This document shows, one piece after another, positions 60,972-62,278 of a stretch of 64,000 nucleotides of DNA. The stretch covers positions 62,001-126,000 of the forward strand of contig NZ_JAUAOA010000003.1 of NCBI RefSeq assembly GCF_030542965.1. The letters run 5' to 3'. Source of the stretch: Azotosporobacter soli. Its GTDB lineage: Bacteria > Bacillota > Negativicutes > SG130. Positions within the stretch are counted from its first letter, which is position 1. Each line of letters starts with the position of its first letter. The translations under genes were made by a program, and so were the position numbers. The notes below the pieces were generated by a model. That model was not told the origin of the DNA and made no database searches. It saw only the letters and a program-made list of their open reading frames with translations.

Positions 60972-61012
60972 AAAAAAGGTCAATAGGCAGTCATGCTCTA
61001 TTGACCTTTTTT
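60972..61012. terminator. Bidirectional terminator between the permease and nuclease genes
   Basis: AAAAAAGGTCAATAG and CTATTGACCTTTTTT perfect arms; the last two bases reach into the nuclease stop codon. Confidence 0.92.
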
Positions 61013-61478
61013 AACGGCAATCGTTTTGATAATCACAATAAGTGCAATATCCGTCGCGCTCCCTGCGCTGCGCTTCGCTCCGTCCGCTGATGATCTTTTG
61101 ATAGCGCCGGTAAAGACGCAATACCTGGCGGTCCGTCAATAAGGCGACGCGCACGCGTTGCCCGTCAGCAAAATGGATATAGCCGTGCTTGGCCACGCTT
61201 CGACCCTGACTGTGCCGCAGCAGGAAACGATACGCCGACAGCTGGATCCGTTCCGATTCAAAGACCTGCGGGCCAGAGCGGTTTTTATAATCGCCGACGA
61301 CCAAACGCCCCGTACCGTCCAGCCACACGACATCAGGCCGGCCGATCAATTCGACCGGCGTCTCGATGCAAATCGTCCGTTCGATCTGCCAAGGACGCAG
61401 CCTGCGGCGTAAAAGGCTCCGCCGAAGCCATGCCGCAAAACCCAATAAAATTAAGAGTGTGACCCCTTCCAACGTCAT
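61011..61478 (-). CDS. Cas4/RecB-like nuclease, catalytic half with N-terminal membrane anchor
   Basis: 155 residues. Residues 1-20 are a hydrophobic segment (LEGVTLLILLGFAAWL), then a basic stretch (RRSLLRRRLRP). The PD-(D/E)XK core follows: ELIGRPDVVWLDG with the first Asp, VVGDYKNR with the D-x-K, and the QLSAY motif of the RecB family. The end CTYCDYQNDC has three cysteines spaced as in Cas4 cluster sites. It lacks the N-terminal helix and first Cys of Cas4, which lie in the upstream gene. The ATG overlaps that gene's stop by four bases (ATGA). No cas genes are near. Confidence 0.78.
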   Translation of the reverse strand: MTLEGVTLLILLGFAAWLRRSLLRRRLRPWQIERTICIETPVELIGRPDVVWLDGTGRLVVGDYKNRSGPQVFESERIQLSAYRFLLRHSQGRSVAKHGYIHFADGQRVRVALLTDRQVLRLYRRYQKIISGRSEAQRRERDGYCTYCDYQNDCR

Positions 61479-61864
61479 AATCGCGCCGCCCGTATCCAGT
61501 ATTCCAGTACCGTCGCACAGCTTCGCCGCAGCCAACCGCTCTGCTCGAGCAGCGGCAAAACTCGCGGTGAAAAACGGTAATACCATTTTACCAGATATCG
61601 TCCCAAATAAAAACGCAACAGCCATTCATCACGCCAGCGTCGCAGCGCCTCCGCCTGCCAGGCAGCAGCGCCGAATAGCGCACTGGCGATAAAACAGCGG
61701 CGATCCTGTCCGGCGATCCGCCGGGCAAATTCTTCGTGCGCGCTGCTGCCTCGCTGCGCGGCGGCGCGCACCGCGCAGTGATCGTCGCCGTAAAAATAAT
61801 CGAGATAGGCTTGCCGCTCGCATTTCCCCAGTTTAGCCAAGGCGGTCACGCTTATTTTCTTCAA
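61475..61864 (-). CDS. Cas4-like N-terminal half, partner of the membrane nuclease
   Basis: 129 residues. The start, SVTALAKLGKCERQAYLDYFYGDDHCAVRAAAQRGSSAHEEFARRI, matches the N-terminal part of Cas4/RecB nucleases: a Cys (15) followed by RxAYLDY and the RG..HE motif. The remaining part is helical and basic. The catalytic core is missing here and is found in the next gene, so the two are likely one split enzyme. The intact overlap and the membrane helix between the halves argue against a recent frameshift. Confidence 0.72.
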   Translation of the reverse strand: MKKISVTALAKLGKCERQAYLDYFYGDDHCAVRAAAQRGSSAHEEFARRIAGQDRRCFIASALFGAAAWQAEALRRWRDEWLLRFYLGRYLVKWYYRFSPRVLPLLEQSGWLRRSCATVLEYWIRAARL

Positions 61865-61884
61865 TTTCCCCGCCTCCCATGCAT

Positions 61885-61929
61885 AAAAAATAGGCTATGC
61901 CAAACTCAAAGTATAGCATAGCCTATTTA
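61885..61929. terminator. Terminator after the DUF2292 gene
   Basis: TAGGCTATGC and GCATAGCCTA arms flanked by A- and T-runs. Confidence 0.83.
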
Positions 61930-61942
61930 GCCCGGCAATCCA

Positions 61943-62278
61943 TCAGATGCCTTCGCCGTATACGCCTTCCCATTCGGCGAAGCGTTGTTTGTCGGTCCGT
62001 TCCAACTGGCTGATCCGGCCATTTTGAATGCGCAGCTGAATTTGTCCGTACGCCAGCCCTTTCGCAGCCTGGCGCACGCCGCTCTGCCACGCTTGCCCCG
62101 TCTGTTTGAGTGTTACGGTTGCGGCTTGTTCAAGGCGGATTTTCTCCTGTTTGTCCAATTGAATCGGACGTCCATCTTGAAAAACCAACGTTAACGTGCC
62201 GAACTGCATTCGCTCCAGTGCCGTCTTCATAGTGGACAACGCCCGCTCCAGCGCCTGTTCCGCACTTTCCTGCCGCAT
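61943..62278 (-). CDS. Tandem DUF2292 (YezD-like) protein
   Basis: 111 residues containing two copies of a short repeat: FGTLTLVFQDGRPIQLDKQEKIRL at about 26-49 and YGQIQLRIQNGRISQLERTDKQRF at about 77-100. Each matches the single DUF2292/YezD unit, normally 50-60 residues. The function is unknown. It lies 49 bp after cysK on the same strand with no terminator between, so a link with sulfur metabolism is likely. Confidence 0.8.
   Translation of the reverse strand: MRQESAEQALERALSTMKTALERMQFGTLTLVFQDGRPIQLDKQEKIRLEQAATVTLKQTGQAWQSGVRQAAKGLAYGQIQLRIQNGRISQLERTDKQRFAEWEGVYGEGI

Follow-up and report, generated by a model that had tools for sequence, protein, structure and literature searches.

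A gene pair predicted to encode a two-chain, membrane-tethered nuclease of the Cas4 type

Cas4 (TIGR00372/PF01930) and the Dna2/AddB-type Fe-S nucleases share one order of motifs along a chain: Cys, G..H, GxPD, DxK, Q and CxxC(5)C. Nucleases of this type are not confined to CRISPR loci; a 2017 survey of Cas4 (PMC5704561) describes solo-Cas4 and Cas4-like pfam12705 proteins that lie outside them, as do the genes considered here, but each member that it describes is either one chain or fused to a helicase. The word 'split' does not occur in its main text, and 'membrane' is used there only of a neighbouring carboxypeptidase. No paper on a split or membrane Cas4 was found in the literature searched, which mostly excluded subscription journals. 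We describe here two overlapping genes that contain the same motifs in the same order but distributed over two chains, an arrangement that seems to be undescribed.

The pair is located on the minus strand of the window, by which we mean the whole 64,000-nucleotide stretch of Azotosporobacter soli DNA that was analysed. Its features are as follows:

61475..61864, minus strand: gene 1, 129 residues, TTG start; Cas4 N-terminal half plus a CFI-box-CTERM domain, kept in related pairs
61703..61864, minus strand: Cas4/Dna2-like N-half of gene 1 (residues 1-54, with Cys15 and G39xxxH43), from invariance in 15 aligned pairs and comparison with Cas4 profiles
61502..61696, minus strand: CFI-box-CTERM domain of gene 1 (residues 57-121; NF041770, E=3.9e-17)
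61475..61478, minus strand: ATGA, the start codon of gene 2 over the stop codon of gene 1, from the ORF coordinates
61011..61478, minus strand: gene 2, 155 residues, ATG start; membrane helix plus a Cas4/RecB-type PD-(D/E)XK core
61425..61475, minus strand: predicted N-terminal transmembrane helix of gene 2, TLEGVTLLILLGFAAWL, followed by RRSLLRRRLR, from hydropathy and its presence in 25 of 25 gene 2 homologues
61284..61343, minus strand: catalytic core motifs GRPD (D49) and GDYK (D63, K65) of gene 2, with D49 and K65 invariant in 15 pairs
61017..61046, minus strand: C-terminal CxxCxxxxxC of gene 2 (C145, C148, C154), the remaining three Cas4-type Fe-S ligands, invariant in 15 pairs

The open reading frames, the ATGA overlap and the motifs (C15 and RG39xxxH43 in gene 1; GRPD49, GD63YK65, QLSAY and C145/C148/C154 in gene 2) had been listed in an earlier sequence-only reading of the window, and all were found as given. 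A Shine-Dalgarno sequence, GGGAGGCGGGG, lies 5' of the TTG start of gene 1. Positions 61880-61940, between gene 1 and a 111-residue gene at 61943-62278, contain a hairpin (AAATAGGCTATGC...AGCATAGCCTATTT), which probably acts as a terminator and so sets gene 1 and gene 2 apart as a unit.

Compared with Cas4, the window pair has two chains rather than one, a membrane helix between the two halves, and a CFI-box domain on gene 1. It is thus two ORFs with a predicted helix and not a single soluble chain, and it lacks linkage to cas1/cas2, no cas genes accompanying it. Similarity to the Cas4 family was evaluated by profile searches. Gene 2 matched PDDEXK_1 (PF12705) at 7.8e-14 and 52.6 bits (cut-off 22) over model positions 101-247, and matched Cas_Cas4 at 4e-7, above the curated cut-off; having passed the PF12705 cut-off and containing the catalytic D...DxK, it can be placed in the RecB/Cas4 type of the PD-(D/E)XK superfamily. 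Gene 1 gave a weak match (0.017) to PDDEXK_1 over model positions 2-88, so that one model is divided between the two chains with no overlap. The earlier assignment of the two proteins to Cas4 thus held, with both cut-offs passed by gene 2 and a weak match of gene 1 to the complementary part of PDDEXK_1. Gene 1 also scored 61.8 bits against CFI-box-CTERM (NF041770; cut-off 40), which assigns it that domain. It had been read as a Cas4 N-terminus lacking the core; the motifs agree with this description, which was nevertheless incomplete in leaving the CFI-box-CTERM domain unnamed.

In single-profile searches the Cas4 similarity of gene 1 is weak (0.017; 1 of 15 members), one homologous gene 1 matching Dna2 (PF08696) at 3e-4, and a phmmer search of solved structures returned chance or unrelated matches only. 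A profile of the joined pair aligned over its full length with clostridial single-chain Cas4 (5.5e-15), with the first Cys and the G..H motif in register and the membrane segment absent from Cas4. Taken by itself, the N-half of gene 1 matched a Cas4 profile in one comparison (P=8.6e-4), and comparison with a second, more distant Cas4 group gave no support. In two relatives (L002, L008) gene 1 and gene 2 share one frame and are separated by a stop; when natural in-frame pairs of this kind were read through the single stop, a device used for analysis only, they covered PF12705 from end to end, starting at position 1-2 and reaching 246 of 247. From these comparisons it is very likely that the pair represents a two-chain nuclease of the Cas4 type. 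The domain composition and tether predicted for the pair are well supported at the sequence level, and its nuclease activity is putative.

A homologous in-frame pair (L016), joined through its natural stop, was modelled with AlphaFold2. The core of the joined model had a pLDDT of about 90, as against about 47-57 for the N-half (residues 1-50) and below 50 for the C-terminal Cys stretch; gene 1 modelled alone gave a pLDDT of 48. The top Foldseek match of the joined model was the Cas4 chain 8d3l_I (2.9e-4), followed after Cas4 by AdnA, Dna2, MGME1 and Exo5, and superposition on the Cas4 chain 7mi4_A gave a Z of 9.0 and an rmsd of 3.8 for 118 aligned residues, spanning model residues 13-217.

Among curated named families Cas4 matches gene 2 best, which would fit a Cas4 that serves CRISPR adaptation together with distant cas genes. 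Gene 2 scores 43 bits against the Cas4 equivalog TIGR00372, however, below the 65-bit cut-off, and the host genome has no Cas1. In a core tree, which is unrooted and has long branches, the split nucleases and their solo relatives grouped apart from 13 single-chain Cas4 (98/95). A role in CRISPR adaptation is accordingly exceedingly improbable. Gene 2 is the sole Cas4-like gene of the host genome, and the claim that the locus is unlinked to CRISPR is borne out.

The residues that would form the active site and cluster were examined in 15 aligned pairs drawn from two phyla. Gene 1 was invariant at C15, G39 and H43, and gene 2 at D49, K65, C145, C148 and C154. All four Cas4-cluster Cys positions are therefore invariant while being divided between two chains, in agreement with what had been proposed from the window alone. 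It is probable that one Fe-S cluster is common to both chains. Hydropathy analysis gave a 17-residue Kyte-Doolittle mean of 1.84 for the helix of the window's gene 2. Each of the 25 gene 2 homologues tested was predicted to start with a hydrophobic helix (17-residue means of 1.84-2.86), as expected from the earlier proposal of a membrane anchor, and in 19 of the 25 the flank after the helix was more positive than the flank before it, from which the gene 2 core is predicted to be cytoplasmic. Gene 1 segments were weaker and mostly amphipathic, with a top mean of 2.05 in a short form (L012). On the strength of these predictions, we consider a membrane tether on gene 2 highly likely. We define the two-gene module by gene 1 lying 5' of gene 2 on the same strand, by a Cys and a G..H motif in gene 1, and by a membrane helix, nuclease core and Cys triad in gene 2; the window pair has all of these features.

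The distribution of the pair was determined in the class Negativicutes. A single-protein query of genome contigs gave no match, and an alignment query of the same contigs gave matches. Gene 2 was present in 13 of 300 genomes of the class, with gene 1 directly upstream in nearly all. Intact pairs in the same order were found in five Negativicutes families other than the window's own, and in a sixth family gene 2 was present but gene 1 was not intact; the pair-bearing genera include Pelosinus and Sporomusa. The Cas4 half of gene 1 was not seen outside the Negativicutes among 348 genomes of the phylum. The 4-base overlap (ATGA or GTGA) also occurs in L003, L006, L051-L053, L056, L064 and L067. 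The genomic neighbours of the Negativicutes pairs vary between genera, and no defence-island context was seen around them.

A potential concern with any divided gene is that it represents an ordinary single-chain Cas4 broken by a frameshift or stop mutation in this strain. The catalytic core is indeed missing from gene 1, as is the N-half from gene 2, and some relatives are visibly decayed: gene 1 is disrupted in Pelosinus fermentans JBW45, which also has a fragmentary extra copy, and the N-half is absent from Sporomusa acidovorans. The decayed copies comprise L005, the second copies L014/L015 of Pelosinus, and L007, which is without the N-half. However, intact pairs occur in the five other families and on at least 14 plasmids, gene 2 opens with a membrane helix that Cas4 does not have, and the overlap is kept. 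The dN/dS ratio was 0.07-0.22 for both genes, indicating purifying selection on gene 1 and gene 2. No single-chain version of the pair was seen among the relatives searched, a continuous, soluble Cas4 in close relatives having been looked for specifically. We consider a broken Cas4 very improbable, the pseudogene interpretation being rejected on the basis of conservation and dN/dS, and the pair appears instead to be an evolved one, as had been suggested from its ATGA overlap, with order and ligands kept in the five further families and on the plasmids. The decayed copies indicate that the function of the pair is dispensable. In Pelosinus, with its extra fragmentary copies (L014, L015) and disrupted gene 1 (L005), the pair has been duplicated and lost.

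Gene 1 occurs in two forms in the Negativicutes, one with the CFI box (the window and Pelosinus) and one with a short amphipathic tail, for example NWLIRFLRWLLRLFIR. The CFI-box domain (NF041770) is C-terminal in its other carriers as it is in gene 1; they comprise surface-type proteins, in which a membrane helix follows the box, and a cold-shock/zinc-ribbon protein. We observed the domain at the end of large surface-type proteins or of a cold-shock plus zinc-ribbon protein in L071, L075, L083, L084 and L072. The box was considered as a marker specific to the pair and rejected as such, since it ends surface-type and cold-shock proteins in other Bacillota. No publication on the CFI-box domain was found in the literature searched, subscription journals again being mostly outside it. 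Because the box is C-terminal and often beside a membrane helix elsewhere, and because an amphipathic tail replaces it in some lineages, it probably aids in holding gene 1 at the membrane.

Searches of plasmid records at the protein level extended the pair beyond the Negativicutes. It was intact on at least 14 sampled proteobacterial plasmids, and the genera with plasmids that carry it are Acidovorax, Denitratisoma, Cupriavidus, Rhodanobacter, Dyella, Xanthomonas, Methylophaga, Marinobacter, Microbulbifer, Aeromonas and Thioalkalivibrio; in the Cupriavidus plasmid gene 2 is interrupted by an insertion sequence. Viral contigs and phage records yielded no relatives of the pair. On the plasmids gene 1 is usually annotated as 'CFI-box-CTERM domain-containing protein' and gene 2 as 'Dna2/Cas4', 'PD-(D/E)XK nuclease' or 'hypothetical'. 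The neighbours annotated 'CFI-box-CTERM' and 'Dna2/Cas4 domain-containing' on Acidovorax, Denitratisoma, Aeromonas, Marinobacter and Rhodanobacter plasmids are the same genes in the same order and with the same ligands; they were annotated separately by automatic pipelines, and we found no instance of their being joined into one system. Order and strand are constant among plasmid pairs and overlaps of 1-11 bases are common, with the Dyella, R. thiooxydans and Thioalkalivibrio plasmids having an extra gene between gene 1 and gene 2. Conjugative types (MOBF or MOBH, mostly MPF_F) account for many of the typed pair-bearing plasmids, and tra genes/TraG, mobI or ssb are often close to the pair. The sequence-only reading missed this wide occurrence on conjugative plasmids.

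Several other features of the plasmid loci were recorded. The intervening gene of the Dyella/Rhodanobacter plasmids is a conserved gene of about 222 residues to which no function is assigned (L061:5432-6103 and L062:5429-6097). An M48 peptidase gene lies within a few kb of the nuclease genes in L053, L056 and L064, and an S49 peptidase gene in L055, L061, L062 and L063, these membrane-protease-type neighbours occurring on several unrelated backbones. In Xanthomonas plasmids a gene 1 match (L063:5001-5417) lies between the S49 peptidase gene and a hypothetical gene; the gene table used has no gene at this position.

A relative of gene 2 with a membrane helix, annotated as hypothetical, is carried by more than 1,000 plasmid records, mostly IncC, and most of these plasmids are conjugative. 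Searches with gene 1 matched 78 and 48 plasmid records only, and the host counts listed for them include neither Klebsiella nor Salmonella, in which the solo form is chiefly found. The IncC protein WP_000805800 (pVC211) and its relatives resemble gene 2 in having a membrane helix and nuclease core (about 41% identity over 100 residues), but unlike the window pair they are without gene 1 and have lost the C-terminal Cys triad. The solo gene is located as follows:

L055:5097-5618 (pVC211): solo relative of gene 2, conserved a few kb from a replication gene and an S49 peptidase gene

Such solo relatives bear on an alternative in which the gene 2 product works by itself as a membrane nuclease and shares no active site with the gene 1 product, which would be a different membrane-associated protein or a regulator with a leftover Cas4-like N-terminus. 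Relatives of gene 2 without gene 1 on IncC plasmids and in Pseudomonas aeruginosa L054 would agree with such independence, as would the CFI box at the end of unrelated proteins and the gene that intervenes on some plasmids. However, Cys15 and G39xxxH43 are invariant wherever gene 1 exists, which would be needless in a leftover, and the two halves partition one Pfam model. The joint loss of gene 1 and the Cys triad on IncC plasmids also argues against independence and fits a cluster common to both chains. This link is imperfect, given that L054 keeps the Cys triad without an adjacent gene 1 and without a membrane helix. Overall, we consider it unlikely that the two genes act independently.

The explanation we favour, and judge reasonably likely as a whole, is that the products of gene 1 and gene 2 form, as two chains, one Fe-S nuclease of the Cas4/AddB type, tethered to the membrane and acting there on DNA ends. 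Gene 1 would supply the N-terminal helices, the first cluster Cys and the G..H motif, and gene 2 the remaining three Cys together with the D...DxK...Q motifs of the catalytic core. Translation of the two genes would be coupled by the ATGA overlap, and the chains would assemble on the cytoplasmic face of the inner membrane, with one [4Fe-4S] cluster (1 Cys + 3 Cys) holding them together. The N-terminal helix would anchor the gene 2 product, while the gene 1 product would probably be laid on the membrane through the CFI box, or through the short amphipathic tail in other Negativicutes. The membrane-bound enzyme could then trim or degrade DNA ends that are at the membrane or crossing it during conjugation, uptake or phage injection. 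The membrane tether suggests action on DNA ends at that location, and the plasmid setting fits DNA that enters or leaves by conjugation; the Negativicutes context, with its varied neighbours, speaks neither for nor against such a role. Action on DNA in transit is thus a tentative proposal, somewhat less probable than its converse.

A two-chain membrane nuclease could also serve in plasmid or phage exclusion, by destruction of foreign DNA as it enters, rather than in processing DNA that belongs to the cell or the plasmid, an alternative that differs from our favoured explanation in purpose only. Conjugative plasmids carry the pair near transfer genes, and Cas4 relatives occur in other predicted defence contexts (PMC5704561). 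Against this, the Negativicutes pairs lie outside any visible defence island, and PADLOC matches were of the Cas4 and DruK type only. A function in exclusion is possible but rather unlikely.

If our favoured explanation is correct, the pair would be the first Cas4-family nuclease known to us that consists of two chains and is anchored in the membrane, present both on chromosomes and on proteobacterial conjugative plasmids, and the uncharacterised CFI-box domain would gain its first concrete partner and place. More speculatively, and with doubt outweighing confidence, the pair may represent an undescribed cross-phylum system in which two membrane-bound chains with a bridging cluster process DNA while it crosses the membrane, and in which the cluster and the CFI box could switch the enzyme on only when the halves meet there. 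The finding raises the question of whether a nuclease made of two membrane-associated proteins controls the entry and exit of DNA in bacterial cells.
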